Shown here: positions 12,155 through 19,381 of the stretch, in pieces
How the letters are laid out: every line of letters starts with the position of its first letter
Numbering within the stretch: position 1 is the stretch's first letter
Source of the DNA: Acidimicrobiaceae bacterium
GTDB lineage: Bacteria; Actinomycetota; Acidimicrobiia; Acidimicrobiales; RAAP-2
DNA length: 60,097 bases
Assembly: GCA_947372925.1 (NCBI GenBank)
Contig: CANBVQ010000007.1
Location: 1 to 60,097, forward strand
Direction: 5' to 3'
The notes under the pieces: generated by a model
Told to the model about the DNA's origin: nothing
Database searches by the model: none
The model's input: only the letters and a program-made list of their open reading frames with translations
Position numbers and translations under genes: made by a program

Positions 12155-12177
12155 CCAAAAAATGCCCTAGGGGGCCA
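12155..12177 (-). terminator. Possible terminator of the catabolic operon
   Basis: On the minus strand GCCC-CCTA-GGGC overlaps the stop codon of the FAH-type gene and is followed by ATTTTTT. The stem is only four base pairs, so efficiency is doubtful, but the T-run and its position at the end of the operon support the role. Confidence 0.35.
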
Positions 12178-13003
12178 CAATCGTGTTGTGGATGGTGCCA
12201 AGTTCTCCGATAGTGCTTCGAACGACGTCGCCCACCTGGAGAAAGCGTGCCGGCTGGGCGGTAATCCCTACGCCGGCCGGCGTCCCAGTGAAAATGACAT
12301 CGCCCGGCCAGAGCGGTGTTACCGCTGAAAGTTGGGCGATGAGGGAGGGAATGGAGAACACCATGTCTGTCGAAGGGGCGTCTTGGACCTTGTCCTCATT
12401 AATCCAGCACTCCAGATGGAGATTGTCCCGATCCGAGACCTCGTCCAGTGTGGTGAGCCAGGGACCCACGGGACCAAAGCCGAGATAGGACTTGCCGAGG
12501 GAAAACTGAGATCCGGCCGCAAACTGCATGGTGCGCTCCGAATAGTCCTGCCCTACTGCCAGTCCGGCGATGTAGCCCCACGCATCGGCCTCCGAAACTC
12601 GGTAGGCCTCGCGACTAATGACGGCGACGATCTCGACCTCCCAGTCAAGGGTCTCCCCCATGCGCGGCACCGGCTCGAATGGTCCACCCAGACTCGAGGG
12701 GAACTTTGTAAAGGTTGCCGGAACCTGCGGTACGGGCAGGCCGGCTTCTTCGGCGTGACCGTGATAGTTCAGACCAATCGCAAAGACTTGGCGGGGCTGA
12801 GGTGCCGGTGAGCCCAACTCGTTGGTCGAGAATGCCGTGAGTCCATCGCGTGACCAACTGGGCGCCGCGGCAACGAATGCGGCGAAGTCGTCGTAGAGCG
12901 ACTGAAGGCTCGGCCCAAACTCGCCCCCGCTGGCCTCTGCCACATCGAGAGCTTGGCCGTCGATGAGGAGGTGCGCACGTCCGCTGATGTTGGCAATCTT
13001 CAT
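12167..13003 (-). CDS. Fumarylacetoacetate hydrolase-family protein
   Basis: A 278-residue FAH-fold protein, probably a cytoplasmic metal-dependent hydrolase that cleaves a C-C bond in an acylpyruvate-like ring-cleavage product. Conserved elements are IGLNYHGHAEEAG (76-88), WEVEIVAVI with candidate metal ligands E122 and E124, GYIAGLAVGQDYSER with D153, and GDVIFTGTPAGVG near the C terminus. It is the last gene of a four-gene operon and its ATG overlaps the monooxygenase stop by four bases. FAH-fold relatives include decarboxylases and hydratases, so the exact reaction is open. Confidence 0.82.
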   Translation of the reverse strand: MKIANISGRAHLLIDGQALDVAEASGGEFGPSLQSLYDDFAAFVAAAPSWSRDGLTAFSTNELGSPAPQPRQVFAIGLNYHGHAEEAGLPVPQVPATFTKFPSSLGGPFEPVPRMGETLDWEVEIVAVISREAYRVSEADAWGYIAGLAVGQDYSERTMQFAAGSQFSLGKSYLGFGPVGPWLTTLDEVSDRDNLHLECWINEDKVQDAPSTDMVFSIPSLIAQLSAVTPLWPGDVIFTGTPAGVGITAQPARFLQVGDVVRSTIGELGTIHNTIVAP

Positions 13004-14697
13004 GATTTCACTTTCAATAGTTGTTCAAGGATTGTTGCGATGGCGGTCGAACGGTCGCTCGGGCCGCTTTGCGTCCGCCACGCGACATGCTGATCAGGTC
13101 GTAGCAATAACGCGCCATCAAACTGAATGCCACTGAGCAGTTCCCACTGCCCTGACGCATCGTCGACATCAACGCCAACGACTACACGGGTCACTGAATA
13201 TTCCTGCGGTAACTCGACGTGGGCCCAGTCGGAGTTGTTGCAAAGCAGCAGAAAGGAGCCAGCAGTTACGAGGTCCAGTGTTGAGACTGCTTCACCGGCA
13301 CGCCGCAACACTGCGTGTGGCAGCCGTGCGCCGGGGACCGTATTGGGAACATACTCTCGGACGGGATTGCTCACTACCGGTCGCGTCGTACCGTCATCGA
13401 GCACTGCGCCCGAGTCGGCGTCATAGACAAAGCCCAGTTGGACGCCCAATTGATCGAAGTGTTCGGCCTGGTGCTGTATTGCCCTCGTGACTTCGGCCCT
13501 TCCTTCTTCGGTCGCCAAGATGGCCTCCGCGCGAACTTTGGATGCCTCGAGGTCACCGTCGACACCGAGGGCCATCCACACTTCAACGAGGCGGAAGGCA
13601 TTCTCCAGGCTGACTCCAGCGTTGTACAGCGCAATCGATCGACGCTCAGTTGCATACGTGTCGAGGAGCGATTCAGGAGCCACTCCGCGCATAACCCAAG
13701 CGAGCTTCCACGCGAGGTTGTGGGCTTCCGCAACACCAGTATTGAGACCCAGCCCGCCCGTGGGCGGGAAGCGGTGGGCGGCATCGCCAACCAGAAAGGT
13801 GCGCCCTTGGCGGAATTTATTGGCCACCTGTGAAGTCATACGCCACGAACTCACGTGGCGAATAGTGACGGCGATGTCATCCGGAATTCCCCCGGCACGT
13901 CGAAAGATCGCCTCGGCACGAACAGCGTCGTAATCGGCCACTGTTTCAACAGCGGGGTTATACGTCGTCATGTACACCCATGTTGATGCCAGATCGTGAG
14001 CGATGAACGTGCCTTGAATGGTCGGATCGGTGATCCAGTAGAGCGTTGCGGGATCACTGCCCACCATGGAACGTAGGTCGGTCTCGGCGTGAATGGATAT
14101 GAAGTTCTCGAGTTCATCGGGACCTTCCATCTCAATACCGTTGTGGCGACGAACGGCACTGCTGGCTCCGTCGCAACCAATCAGGTAGCGACTAGTTATT
14201 TCGTAGGTCTCGCAACTCGCAATCGCCCGAACCGTGCTGACCACCCCGTCACTGTTTTCGACACTGGAGACCCACTGCGTTCCCGAACGAAGATCACCAA
14301 CTTCTCGATAGAGAACCGGCTCGAGGCGATGTTGCGAAAGATTGCGCAATGGTTGAGGCGACGTCTGTGCCAGGCGCTCCGGGTCATGCAAATTCTCAAA
14401 GGGAACCGCGCCCAATTCGCGTCCCGCGAGGGAGTCGACCCAACGCGCCCACGCGCCCTCGCTAGGAGTTTGTGCCAAAGATTCGATTTCGGCCATGTCT
14501 AAACCCAGCCCACGAAGAATCTCCAGTGTGCGCGCCGACACCACGTGGGCCGACGGCGCACTCTGAGGTCCGTCGCGCTGTTCAATCACGATGACGGCGA
14601 GTCCAAGTTGGCGCAGGAGCAATGTCTCAACCAGACCAACGGGTCCCCCGCCCACGACGAGGACATCACACGTGGCATTCGTGGTCGCCGTGGCCAT
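13000..14697 (-). CDS. FAD-dependent aromatic (phenolic) monooxygenase
   Basis: A 565-residue group A flavin monooxygenase of the PHBH fold. It has the N-terminal dinucleotide motif VVGGGPVG (about residues 14-21), an SAHVVSARTLEILRGLG segment typical of the TfdB/MhpA/polyketide hydroxylase branch, the DG motif as LIGCDGASSAVRR, and the FAD-ribityl motif FLVGDAAHRFPPTGGLGLN near 300. A thioredoxin-like C-terminal domain of the phenol hydroxylase type is probable. It would hydroxylate a phenolic ring using NAD(P)H and oxygen. It overlaps the SDR-like gene by one base (TGATG) and the FAH gene by four. The substrate is unknown. Confidence 0.85.
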   Translation of the reverse strand: MATATTNATCDVLVVGGGPVGLVETLLLRQLGLAVIVIEQRDGPQSAPSAHVVSARTLEILRGLGLDMAEIESLAQTPSEGAWARWVDSLAGRELGAVPFENLHDPERLAQTSPQPLRNLSQHRLEPVLYREVGDLRSGTQWVSSVENSDGVVSTVRAIASCETYEITSRYLIGCDGASSAVRRHNGIEMEGPDELENFISIHAETDLRSMVGSDPATLYWITDPTIQGTFIAHDLASTWVYMTTYNPAVETVADYDAVRAEAIFRRAGGIPDDIAVTIRHVSSWRMTSQVANKFRQGRTFLVGDAAHRFPPTGGLGLNTGVAEAHNLAWKLAWVMRGVAPESLLDTYATERRSIALYNAGVSLENAFRLVEVWMALGVDGDLEASKVRAEAILATEEGRAEVTRAIQHQAEHFDQLGVQLGFVYDADSGAVLDDGTTRPVVSNPVREYVPNTVPGARLPHAVLRRAGEAVSTLDLVTAGSFLLLCNNSDWAHVELPQEYSVTRVVVGVDVDDASGQWELLSGIQFDGALLLRPDQHVAWRTQSGPSDRSTAIATILEQLLKVKS

Positions 14698-15476
14698 CAG
14701 ATCAATCCCTCGTAACTACCACCGTCGAGGTGGAGGTTGTCGCCCGAAATGTATCCGGCCTGTGCGGACGCTAGGAAGGCACAAGCTGCGCCAACTTCGT
14801 CGGGCCGGCCGAGGCGTTTGGCGGCAATGGTCTGTTTCATTTCGTCGTACGCCTCTTCGAGGGTGATGCCTCGAAACTGGACCTGCAGTTCGGCCATCTG
14901 GCGCTGACGACCAGTATCAATGCGCTCAGGCAGGAGGTTGTTGATCGTCACGTTGTCGCTCACAACTTCCTTCGAAATGGCCTTCGTCACTCCGGTCAGC
15001 GCTGTGCGGGCCGCGATGGAGAGTGTCATAAATGGGTGGGGCGACGTCACCATGGCCGAGGTGATGTTGATGATTCGTCCGAATTTACGATCACGCATTC
15101 CCGGGATTGCCAGCTGCATCATTCCCACGGCGGAGTGAAAGTTCATATCGAAGGCCTCACTCCACTGAGTCGCTGAGTTGTCCACGAAGCTCGATGGTGA
15201 CGGTCCCGAGGCATTCGTCACCAGGATGTCGACAGTCGGACGTGCGGCGAAGAGTTGCGCTCGCCCTTCGGCGGTTGCCACATCGGCCGCAACGAAGAGC
15301 ACCTCAACCCCAAAACGTGACCGCAACTCGGTGGCGACCGCCTCGCCTTCCTTATCTGTTCGGGCGTTGAGAACAATGTTGACTCCCTCGGCGGCCAAAG
15401 CTTCGGCGCAGGCGAGACCCAGACCGCGGGTCGATCCTGACACGATGGCCCACTTGCCGGAAATACCGAGGTCCAT
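14697..15476 (-). CDS. SDR-family protein lacking the catalytic Tyr and Lys
   Basis: A 259-residue protein with the short-chain dehydrogenase fold: SGSTRGLG cofactor motif (13-20), AADV (63-66), and structural N112. The catalytic serine position is retained in INITS (S140). Thirteen residues later, where YxxxK should be, the sequence is SIAAR (153-157): Tyr is replaced by Ser and Lys by Arg, and NNAG is replaced by TNAS. An FabG-like SDR subgroup with a non-canonical active site is known, and this protein resembles it. It lies between the dioxygenase and monooxygenase genes with one-base overlaps at both ends, so it is probably part of the same pathway, as an altered-mechanism enzyme or a partner protein. 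Confidence 0.8.
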   Translation of the reverse strand: MDLGISGKWAIVSGSTRGLGLACAEALAAEGVNIVLNARTDKEGEAVATELRSRFGVEVLFVAADVATAEGRAQLFAARPTVDILVTNASGPSPSSFVDNSATQWSEAFDMNFHSAVGMMQLAIPGMRDRKFGRIINITSAMVTSPHPFMTLSIAARTALTGVTKAISKEVVSDNVTINNLLPERIDTGRQRQMAELQVQFRGITLEEAYDEMKQTIAAKRLGRPDEVGAACAFLASAQAGYISGDNLHLDGGSYEGLI

Positions 15477-16417
15477 TACAGACCAGCCCGTTCGCGGCCA
15501 GCGGCAATCACGTCGATATCAGTGGGTAGGAAAAAGTCCATTTTCGATATCCCCGATTCGTACGTGGCGATGGTGAATGGATCCCAGTCCTCACGGCGGA
15601 TTTCGTTGTCCCACAGATCATCATCGGTGATCTGGTCCATGTCAGCAAAGAACTCGAACATGCCACCGGCAGGATCGAGGAGATACCAAAAGACGTTGGA
15701 ACCCACCACGTGGCGACCCATGCCGTACACCGATGCGTCGGGACGCTCCCGCACCACTTCCACACCGCGAAGACCAATGGCGTCAAAGTCTTCAAGCTCT
15801 AACGCGTAGTGGTTCATGCAAGGCACGGGAGCCGGCAAGATCAACATGTTGTGATGATCGGTCGAGCAACGAAGAAATGTGGCCTCGACGTCCGGTAGGC
15901 GGTCAGAAATGCGAAAGCCGAGGCCATTGACGTAGTAATCGACGGACGCCTTCGTGTCAGTCGAGCCAAAGACCACGTGTCCAAATCGTCGAGGTTTCGG
16001 AGCCCATTCGCGGACGGCCGCTTCCGAACGACGATTGGGTCGGTTCAGTCGTCCCGGTCCGTTCAGTTCGCGTGGTGCGATAGGAGGCAAGGGGTTCGTC
16101 TTTGTCACTTCGATACGAATCGAATGGCCGATCACAGGATCGATACTCTCGAGCCAGCCGTCGCCCAGTTCAACCGCGGCACCCATCTTTTGAAGGGATG
16201 CTGCAATGCGGACTAGATCTTCTTGCGTCTCGGTAGCAATGCGCATTTGTGAGACGTGCCGGTAGTCCGACTCGGCGAGCCGAAGCTGCGACTCACGCTC
16301 AGGCGTTCCGAGTCGTCCCGTGCCGGTCGTCAGGAGACCGCGGCGATTCCAGAACTCTTCGAGCTCGCTGGGATTTGGGACTGCGAGTTCAATATCGATT
16401 AGGTCCGTGAGCGCCAT
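15476..16417 (-). CDS. Two-domain extradiol (VOC) ring-cleavage dioxygenase
   Basis: A 313-residue vicinal-oxygen-chelate protein. The C-terminal module carries the expected 2-His-1-Glu iron site: H147 in RFGHVVF, H203 in CMNHYALELED and E255 in GGMFEFFADMD. A DHHNMLIL segment (187-194) supplies candidate catalytic histidines, as in catechol 2,3-dioxygenases. The N-terminal module (residues 1-110) lacks these ligands, as is usual. It should cleave a catechol-type ring next to the diol. It is the first gene of the operon, opposite a divergent TetR gene, and overlaps the SDR-like gene by one base. The substrate is not predictable from sequence alone. Confidence 0.88.
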   Translation of the reverse strand: MALTDLIDIELAVPNPSELEEFWNRRGLLTTGTGRLGTPERESQLRLAESDYRHVSQMRIATETQEDLVRIAASLQKMGAAVELGDGWLESIDPVIGHSIRIEVTKTNPLPPIAPRELNGPGRLNRPNRRSEAAVREWAPKPRRFGHVVFGSTDTKASVDYYVNGLGFRISDRLPDVEATFLRCSTDHHNMLILPAPVPCMNHYALELEDFDAIGLRGVEVVRERPDASVYGMGRHVVGSNVFWYLLDPAGGMFEFFADMDQITDDDLWDNEIRREDWDPFTIATYESGISKMDFFLPTDIDVIAAGRERAGL

Positions 16418-16459
16418 TGAAAACTCCCTCTTCGTAATGTTATTTCTTAGGCATATGAC

Positions 16460-16479
16460 TAACTAATATTAGGTTTAGC
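16460..16479. promoter_or_regulatory. AT-rich dyad, candidate TetR operator
   Basis: The 120-base interval between the dioxygenase gene and the divergent TetR gene contains CTAATATTAG (16463-16472), a perfect 10-base palindrome flanked by roughly symmetric CTAA and TTTAG. It is the most AT-rich spot of the region. TetR-type control of both divergent genes through this site is inferred. Confidence 0.45.
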
Positions 16480-16537
16480 AGATGAGAACCCTTCCTGGGG
16501 GATTTGTCAGGAAGACGCCAGATAGGGAGCACGGTCG

Positions 16538-17155
16538 ATGAAAGAGCGAGGACGGCCCAAGATTGTTCAGGACGACGAGATTCTTAATGCCGCCCTGAAG
16601 GGATTCGCCGAGCTTGGCTACGAAGGAATCTCCCTGCGAACGCTCAGCACCGACCTTGGACTCAGTCACAGTGCCGTAGGCCAGCGGTATGGGACCAAGG
16701 AAAATCTCTTTCGCCACGCCGTGGCCGCCGAGTTTGATCGCTTCTTTGCGGCTATCGGGACTGCGCGCGCCGCCTGGCCCGAGGTACAAGACGACCTCCA
16801 AGAGTTGCGGGCGCTCGTTCACAGCTTCTTGACGGCCGCCGCCTCATTCCCCTCCTTAGGACAACTCATGAATCGCGAAGGCGTCGACCGCTCCGATCGA
16901 CTCGACTTCATCTTCGAAACCGCAATAGTCCCTCAAATTAGTCCGCTAATCGAACTGCTCGATCGCCTGCGTAGCGAGAAGCTCATCTACCCGATTCCCA
17001 CTCGAAGCCTGTTCTTCTTGGTCGCCCACGGCGCTGAAGCGCCATTTACCTTGCGGGGCTTCTCGGCCGAGTTTGATCCCTACGACGGCGAGTTGGACGT
17101 ACCAGCGCACATCGAGGTAATGACAGATTTAGTAATGAGAGCCATCACGCTCTAG
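16538..17155 (+). CDS. TetR-family regulator, divergent from the catabolic operon
   Basis: A 205-residue protein with a standard N-terminal TetR helix-turn-helix at about residues 12-58 (ISLRTLSTDLGLSHSAVGQRYGTKENLF) and a ligand-binding C-terminal domain. It is transcribed away from the dioxygenase-SDR-monooxygenase-FAH operon, the classic arrangement of a local repressor responding to a substrate or intermediate. It converges on icd with only nine bases between stop codons. Confidence 0.85.
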   Translation: MKERGRPKIVQDDEILNAALKGFAELGYEGISLRTLSTDLGLSHSAVGQRYGTKENLFRHAVAAEFDRFFAAIGTARAAWPEVQDDLQELRALVHSFLTAAASFPSLGQLMNREGVDRSDRLDFIFETAIVPQISPLIELLDRLRSEKLIYPIPTRSLFFLVAHGAEAPFTLRGFSAEFDPYDGELDVPAHIEVMTDLVMRAITL

Positions 17156-17172
17156 GGGCAACGCTTAGAGCG
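17148..17172. other. Hairpin spanning convergent TetR and icd stop codons
   Basis: CGCTCTA and TAGAGCG form a 7-base inverted repeat with an 11-base loop that covers both stop codons. No clear T-run follows on either strand. It may be a weak bidirectional terminator, or simply result from both genes ending in the same GCTCTA sequence. Confidence 0.3.
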
Positions 17173-19381
17173 AGGCGAGAATCTGATTGAACGTGGGCGA
17201 TGGGCGCATTGCGGCAGCTACCTTGTCGACATTAGGACGGAAGTAGCCCCCGAGGTCCACAGGACTCCCCTGTACCGCCAGCAACTCTTGAACGATCTTC
17301 TCTTCGGCATCGGCGAGCTGCGTCGCAATGACGGCAAACTTGCTGGCCAAATCGGCGTCGGCACCTTGTTGGGCTAGTTCGTCGGCCCAGTAGATAGCGA
17401 GGTAGATGTGCGAACCACGATTGTCAATCGTGCCTAGCTTGCGTCCGGGCGAGCGGTCGGCGTCGAGGAAGCGGCCAGTGGCACGGTCCAAAGTGTCAGC
17501 CAATACTTGGGCGCGGGCGTTGCCGGTGCGCTGGGCTAGGTATTCAAAACTAGAAGCCAGGGCTAAGAACTCACCGAGGCTGTCCCAGCGCAGATAGTTC
17601 TCCTGTTCAAACTGCTGAACGTGCTTTGGAGCCGAACCACCGGCACCAGTCTCAAAGAGTCCTCCGCCGTTGATCAATGGAACAATCGACAACATCTTGG
17701 CGCTGGTGCCCAGTTCCATAATGGGAAAGAGGTCCGTGAGGTAGTCACGCAGAACATTGCCCGTTACCGAAATGGTGTTGAGACCCTTACGGATACGGTC
17801 CAGGGAGATGCCGATAGCGTCGGCCGGGGCCATGATGTCAATCTGGAGATTGGTCGTGTCGTGATCGGCCAAGTAGCGACGAACCTTGGCAATCACTTGG
17901 GCGTCGTGAGCTCGATCTTCATCGAGCCAAAAAATGGCGGGGTCTCCCGTGAGGCGAGCCCGATTTACCGCAAGCTTGACCCAGTCAGCAATCGGAACAT
18001 CCTTGGTCTGGCACATCCGAAAGATGTCGTGCTGCGCAACGGGCATTGAGAAAACGGCCTCACCGGCCGCATTCGTCACCACCACGGTGCCATCGTGCGG
18101 GATTTCGAAAGTCTTGTCGTGACTGCCGTACTCTTCAGCCGCCTGGGCCATCAATCCAACGTTTGGCACCGACCCCATGGTCGCGGGATCGAAGGCGCCG
18201 AATCGGCGACAGTCATTGAGAGCGACCTGATAGATACCGGCGTAGCTGGCATCGGGCAGAACGGCCAAAGTGTCGGCCTCCTGGCCGGCAGCGTTCCACA
18301 TGTGGCCCGAGGAGCGAATCATGGCCGGCATCGAAGCGTCGACAATCACATCGTTCGGAGCGTGCAGATTGGTGATGCCCTTATCGGAGTCGACCATTGC
18401 CAGGGCCGGTCCGTCGGCCAGCTCGCTGGCGAACGAAGCCTTTATGGCCTCGCCATTGGCCAGAGCATCGAGTCCGGCGTAGATACCGGCCAGTCCGTTA
18501 TTCGGGTTGAGTCCGGCGTTCGCCATTTCGCCCCCGAACTGGGAGAACGTCTTCGGAAAGAATGCTCGAACGACGTGGCCGAACATGATGGGGTCCGAGA
18601 CCTTCATCATGGTTGCCTTGAGGTGAATTGAAAACAGCACGCCTTCGGACTTGGCGCGGGCAATTTGCTCCTGCAAAAAGGCGTCCAGAGCAGCCGCCTC
18701 CATCTTGGTGGCGTCGACAATTTCCCCGGCCAGGACCGCGAGCGGTCCGCGGAGGGGTGCACTCGATCCATCCGCGGAGATGAGGGAGATTGTGAGCGAG
18801 TCGTCGGACGGCATGACGCTCGACACCTCATTAGAGAAAAAGTCACCGTGGGTCATGTGTGCCACGTTGGTCTTGGAGTCTGGCGACCACGCACCCATTG
18901 AGTGAGGGTGCTTCTGGGCGTACTTCTTTACCGAAAGTGGCGCCCGACGGTCCGAATTACCCTCGCGCAACACGGGGTTAACGGCCGAACCAGAAACCTT
19001 CTTGTATCGAGTCTGAATGTCTCGCTCGTCGTCAGTCTCAGGACTGTCGGGGTAGTTAGGAATAGCAAAACCCTGGGACTGCAGCTCGGCAATAACGGAC
19101 TTGATCTGTGGAATCGAGGCCGAAATATTTGGCAACTTGATGATGTTGGCTTCAGGTAGCAGTACTTCCTTGCCCAGCGTGGCCAGATCGTCGGCGATGC
19201 GCTGGTCCGGGCTTAGGAATTCGGGAAAATTGGCAATAAGTCGCCCGGCGAGCGAGATGTCACTCGTCGTCACCGTGACGCCGGCCTGCGCCGCAAAGGC
19301 CGAGACGATAGGGAGAAGGGAGTACGTGGCGAGAGCGGGAGCTTCGTCCGTGTGGGTGTAGATGATGGTTGATTCGCTCAT
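17165..19381 (-). CDS. icd: NADP-dependent isocitrate dehydrogenase, monomeric type
   Basis: Oxidatively decarboxylates isocitrate to 2-oxoglutarate in the TCA cycle. The 738-residue length and [19 protein letters not shown] start are diagnostic of the large monomeric class, as are the [24 protein letters not shown] substrate-binding segment, the [11 protein letters not shown] stretch and the C-terminal [17 protein letters not shown]. This form is frequent in actinobacteria and unrelated in size to the dimeric 45-kDa enzyme. It has short flanking spacers and lies downstream of ribF on the same strand. Confidence 0.97.

Follow-up and report, generated by a model that had tools for sequence, protein, structure and literature searches.

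The SDR of the ring-cleavage operon lacks the catalytic Tyr and Lys

The window analyzed here, a DNA stretch of 60,097 nucleotides, contains a ring-cleavage operon with a gene for an SDR-fold protein that has no YxxxK motif, which raises the question of what such a protein does and whether the loss of the motif is connected with the pathway. The gene order is TetR, VOC dioxygenase, SDR, FAD monooxygenase (FMO), and FAH hydrolase (Table 1); the SDR reading frame runs from 15476 to 14697, the initial annotation having given no strand. The one-base overlaps of the SDR gene with the dioxygenase gene (TAATG) and the monooxygenase gene (TGATG) reported there were found again, and the FMO and FAH genes overlap by 4 bases (ATGA); the VOC, SDR, FMO, and FAH genes are translationally coupled. 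The three residues listed for the VOC protein align with the 2-His-1-Glu iron ligands of 3b59, as in type I extradiol dioxygenases. The best PDB matches of the FAD hydroxylase are 2,4-dichlorophenol 6-monooxygenase and 2-hydroxybiphenyl 3-monooxygenase. A homologue of this FMO with 38% identity in a genus mate (G006:C53:5196-6968) contains one in-frame TAG.

Table 1. Features of the SDR locus and their positions in the window
Feature	Position	Strand	Characteristics
Fumarylacetoacetate-hydrolase (FAH) family C-C hydrolase/decarboxylase	12167..13003	minus	Best PDB match 6v77 (putative HpcE)
Group A FAD aromatic hydroxylase (FMO)	13000..14697	minus	FAD_binding_3 and Rng_hyd_C
SDR-fold protein, 259 aa	14697..15476	minus	N112/S140/S153/R157; PE (183-184), not PG; R17 and R39
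VOC/type I extradiol dioxygenase	15476..16417	minus	Pfam PF00903; closest PDB entry 3b59; H147, H203, E255
TetR-family regulator	16538..17155	plus	Divergent from the operon; arrangement repeated in genus mate L158
Isocitrate dehydrogenase gene (IDH)	17165-19381		Identified from sequence by eye

Of the catalytic tetrad N-S-Y-K of classical SDRs, the protein retains N112 and S140, but the Tyr and Lys positions are occupied by S153 and R157, as originally read. That this is a genuine substitution and no misalignment is confirmed by the ungapped alignment with 5va8, in which S153 and R157 fall in the Tyr/Lys columns. There is no Tyr between S140 and N179 (all Tyr residues are at 210, 242, and 255), and the closest Lys residues, Lys165 and Lys169, lie 8 and 12 residues beyond the Lys position, so that no alternative register rescues YxxxK; the enoyl-reductase spacing YxxxxxxK is ruled out by the same lack of Tyr from 140 to 179. 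In place of the PG motif that follows β6 in classical SDRs, the protein has P183-E184. The cofactor motif had been called intact, which holds for the complete GxxxGxG but not for its usual leading T, which is S (SGSTRGLG). R17 and R39 are NADP(H)-type features. Cofactor binding appears likely, since the protein retains GxxxGxG, N88, and R39 and since NADP(H) is present in structures of relatives, NADP according to the descriptions of 5idy and 5va8 and NADPH according to that of 5vps. NCBIfam profiles gave only sub-threshold generic SDR matches to the protein. A second, very divergent SDR is encoded in the same genome (L082, G000:C6:47114-47863); it has K112/A140/T153/R157 and likewise no YxxxK.

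Tyr/Lys replacement is a trait of a broad SDR family

The AlphaFold model of the protein has a mean pLDDT of 94.3, and the PDB structures closest to it are 5idy and 5va8 (rmsd 1.0 to 1.1 Å). These belong to a set of Burkholderia SDRs (5idx/5idy, 5va8, and 5vps) that resemble the window SDR in overall sequence (45 to 46% identity), in fold (TM 0.97 to 0.98), in S140/S153/R157, and in the N-terminus MDLGI, but differ from it in having the PG motif (G184) followed by I/L185 instead of E184-R185. APE0912 of Aeropyrum pernix (2z1n) also has Ser and Arg at the Tyr/Lys positions (LSNIMR); it is only about 32% identical to the window SDR and has S184 instead of E184. For APE0912 we know of no function, and the literature searched yielded no reported function for the Burkholderia proteins. 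Literature searches on 5idx/5va8/5vps/2z1n/cd05344 or on the VOC-SDR-FMO-FAH cluster returned nothing relevant.

The homologue set comprised 107 rows, of which 100 have both S153 and R157, the two residues by which family rows were selected. These 100 rows form one family, containing every close homologue found, and the window SDR, besides carrying S140, S153, and R157, is similar over its full length to members of the 5idy/5va8/2z1n kind (phmmer E 3e-65, residues 1-257). SxxxR was nearly universal among the homologues collected from genome contigs and relatives; the exceptions, all in genus mates, are YxxxK SDRs of an evidently separate kind (L102-L105, L107, and L108), with 32 to 35% identity, and no YxxxK SDR occurred in an equivalent operon context among the homologues collected. 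A comparison of positions 140, 153, and 157 across homologues, as proposed in the initial annotation, showed all three to be invariant in a 42-sequence alignment, along with P183 and R190, and N112 to be nearly so. A substitution specific to the window operon is ruled out. Judged from these alignments, Tyr/Lys replacement is the hallmark of a broad, known, functionally uncharacterized SDR family, presumably CDD cd05344 ("BKR_like_SDR_like").

The invariance of S140, S153, R157, P183, and R190 argues for a working catalytic site. A structural subunit had been considered in the initial annotation, and a pseudoenzyme or a structural or regulatory subunit of the dioxygenase or monooxygenase would agree with the missing Tyr/Lys and with the tight translational coupling to both genes. 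The pocket residues are, however, invariant across Actinomycetota and Pseudomonadota, and the SDR is also found without the other genes, which makes such a noncatalytic role most improbable. The other early suggestion, a different reaction, is borne out by the comparison to the extent that different chemistry is probable. A ketoreductase or alcohol dehydrogenase of the classical type acting on a side chain, with Ser153 and Arg157 standing in for Tyr and Lys, appears quite unlikely: the SDR fold and the retained N112 and S140 speak for it and the hydride transfer geometry is plausible, but the general acid Tyr is missing from the entire active-site stretch, and its family-wide loss suggests other chemistry.

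A clade marked by E184 usually accompanies ring-cleavage genes

In the tree of the 107 sequences, 28 including the window SDR form one clade (SH-aLRT 93). The glycine of the PG motif is replaced by E184 in 28/28 clade rows versus 0/72 other SxxxR rows, and M142 (28/28), K165 (28/28), Q191 (27/28), and mostly R185 (24/28) are further residues of the clade; the window SDR carries the signature E184, M142, and Q191. Neighboring genes were detected by HMM searches on six-frame translations of the loci. Among 80 loci from the initial search, 17/22 E184 members versus 1/58 others had strong VOC, FMO, or FAH matches in the flanks retrieved; this tally excludes the window and any locus whose flanks were short, and it does not count as strong the weak fragments matched at L060 and L073. 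The Fisher p of 4e-12 is descriptive and not an independent-sample probability, because the loci are phylogenetically related. The window operon holds all three neighbor types.

A check on data outside those that had revealed the pattern, namely 397 Actinomycetota genomes, returned the genome of the window and four others, and all four new loci combine S153, R157, and E184 with VOC, FMO, or FAH neighbors. In genus mate G290 (L158), TetR and VOC-SDR-FMO are repeated, with identities of 69/74/56% for VOC/SDR/FMO; a heliorhodopsin gene (L158, 3756-4511) lies two genes past the TetR gene of this cassette. At L161, VOC-SDR is followed by an acyl-CoA-dehydrogenase-type protein, a gene order implying that the hydroxylase type may vary while VOC-SDR, the most constant gene pair across the actinobacterial E184 loci, stays. 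A plasmid of Rhodococcus erythropolis BG43 carries SDR-VOC-FAH-FMO-FAH, and plasmid records of Bradyrhizobium, Caballeronia, and Thioclava add further clusters. Loci L005 (Pseudomonas), L013 (Actinomadura), and L114 (Caballeronia) have a similar cluster of VOC, a gene at the amidohydrolase position, the E184 SDR, and FAH, as annotated in L114 and deduced from HMM matches and ORF positions in L005 and L013. The E184 SDR of SAR86 REDSEA (L065, 6001-6760) aligns with the query only piecewise, over residues 1-66 and 80-259, and may be frameshifted or misassembled. No ring-cleavage neighbors occurred in the flanks examined of E184 members L002, L003, and L007; the association of E184 with ring cleavage is usual, not absolute.

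The loss of Tyr/Lys had been presented as a specialty of this operon, a view contradicted by the family-wide occurrence of the loss and by the single non-E184 member with strong ring-cleavage neighbors. The initial annotation had also proposed testing whether the substitution travels with the dioxygenase and monooxygenase genes: S153/R157 does not, whereas E184/M142/Q191, which the initial annotation did not name, does. As far as residues and gene neighborhoods tell, ring cleavage is tracked by E184, together with M142 and Q191, and not by the loss of Tyr/Lys, and the window SDR is placed by its residues both in the SxxxR family and in an E184 clade specialized for extradiol ring-cleavage pathways. 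What is new is this E184 clade linked to ring cleavage; the Tyr/Lys-less SDR family was already known.

The locus fits a lateral gain

Between ribF and rpsO-pnp, the window carries the four genes of the operon together with those for TetR and isocitrate dehydrogenase (12167-19381); rpsO is immediately upstream of pnp. ribF and pnp are neighbors in 18 genus mates, separated only by about 400 to 500 bp, a gap that fits rpsO. At a cutoff of E 1e-30, 36 other genomes of the genus yielded no SxxxR homologue; the further genus mate G290 has one, located elsewhere. The insertion and the lack of homologues in the 36 genomes fit a lateral gain of the locus. The GC content of the operon, 59%, is no different from that of the window.

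Possible functions of the SDR

The explanation that we tentatively favor is that the window SDR uses NADPH to reduce a C=C bond in the ring-cleavage product or its precursor, as an ene reductase that works without Tyr. The nearest characterized SDRs with neither Tyr nor Lys at positions 153 and 157 are AerF (6jh7/6jha/6jhb) and YwfH/BacG (3u49/3u4c/3u4d), which share the SDR fold and are NADPH dependent. AerF is a double bond reductase according to the title of a 2020 work cited in PMC10143770, and the titles of its structures name bound NADPH and 4-hydroxyphenylpyruvate; BacG reduces (epoxy-)H2HPP, a dienone acid, to H4HPP (PMC9147277). AerF has S153 and N157, YwfH/BacG has N at both positions, and both have G140, whereas the window SDR has S140, S153, and R157 and thus shares neither N157 nor G140. 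Both enzymes are biosynthetic, not catabolic, and their chemistry may not carry over, given 28 to 31% identity and the absence of S140 from both.

Among catabolic systems, the hcdABC(E) operon for umbelliferone in Pseudomonas mandelii 7HK4 combines FMO, extradiol dioxygenase, and FAH with a separate C=C reductase, HcdE (PMC6222606, PMC7913881). Its likeness to the window operon, drawn from gene content, lies in the FMO, extradiol dioxygenase, and FAH set; HcdE is a zinc-type alcohol dehydrogenase, unlike the SDR. In the fde (naringenin) and ifc (isoflavone) clusters, the A ring is cleaved by FMO and a VOC-type dioxygenase, as described in PMC11069340, which mentions no SDR; it is by this description that we liken them to the window operon.

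C=C reduction is favored by the AerF and YwfH/BacG reductases together with an hcd-like gene set that needs a separate C=C reductase. It is supported by the finding that an SDR can be turned from keto- to ene-reduction, or back, by exchange of Tyr and Glu (PMC4988501); in isopiperitenone reductase of Mentha, replacement of the catalytic Tyr by Glu accompanies C=C reduction (PMC4988501), although this is a plant enzyme with its Glu at the Tyr position, whereas that of the window SDR is at the PG motif. The constancy of the VOC-SDR pair while the hydroxylase type changes also supports it. Against it, an hcd-type pathway demands no C=C reduction after ring cleavage, L002, L003, and L007 occur without ring-cleavage neighbors in the flanks examined, and neither a substrate nor an activity came to light for members of the E184 clade or the SxxxR family.

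As an ene reductase, the protein would bind NADPH, as suggested by relatives crystallized with NADP or NADPH and by R17/R39, and would transfer hydride from it, independently of Tyr, in a conjugate manner to the C=C of an enone or dienol-keto acid. S140/S153/R157 might hold the carboxylate or enolate and relay a proton, together with R190 and with E184, which would lie close to the nicotinamide. The substrate would most likely be the ring-fission product of the adjacent dioxygenase or else, in the parent phenol, an unsaturated side chain or a lactone, reduction of which would parallel HcdE in the hcd coumarin pathway. FAH would afterwards cleave the resulting acylpyruvate-type product.

Two other activities on the ring-fission product were considered. 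Since the SDR adjoins the dioxygenase, it could be a carbonyl/hemiacetal dehydrogenase that converts the semialdehyde or hemiacetal formed there to a lactone or acid, in analogy to LigC of protocatechuate 4,5-cleavage, with Ser153/Glu184 as base. The amidohydrolases LigI and LigJ belong to the lig pathway, and amidohydrolase-family genes lie nearby in L114 and L111, with Amidohydro_2 recurring in a Pfam tally of neighbors made for the E184 loci only. The window operon, however, has neither amidohydrolase nor aldolase, the cofactor features and family structures are of the NADP(H) type, and the nearest characterized Tyr-less relatives are reductases; we rate this dehydrogenase as unlikely. Halohydrin dehalogenases, with Ser-Tyr-Arg on the SDR fold, set a precedent for a non-redox enzyme on this scaffold. 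Such an enzyme, be it a tautomerase, isomerase, hydratase, or C-C hydrolase, would have the ring-fission dienol as its substrate, and any nucleotide would serve a structural role. It would suit the loss of Tyr and Lys from an otherwise invariant pocket, the charged residues E184 and R185/R190 in the ring-cleavage clade, and the common need of ring-fission products for tautomerization. It is nevertheless unlikely in view of the retained GxxxGxG, N88, and R39 and of the NADP(H) bound by relatives.

Returning to the ene-reductase proposal, a wider and rather doubtful extension is that the E184 clade constitutes a new functional class of SDR-fold, Tyr/Lys-less ene-reductases (or tautomerases) for meta-cleavage products, in which Glu at the PG glycine takes over acid/base duty. 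Pipelines annotate such proteins as "SDR family oxidoreductase," implying alcohol or ketone chemistry that the active site cannot perform in the usual way. Loss of YxxxK is by itself no marker of ring-cleavage function; the residues singled out by the comparison are S153, R157, E184, and R190, and the clade signature of PE for PG with M142 and Q191, usually beside extradiol dioxygenases, suggests that aromatic degradation includes a step not yet assigned. If the wider proposal is true, the E184 clade would represent a recurrent, unrecognized step in bacterial aromatic ring cleavage in both Actinomycetota and Pseudomonadota.
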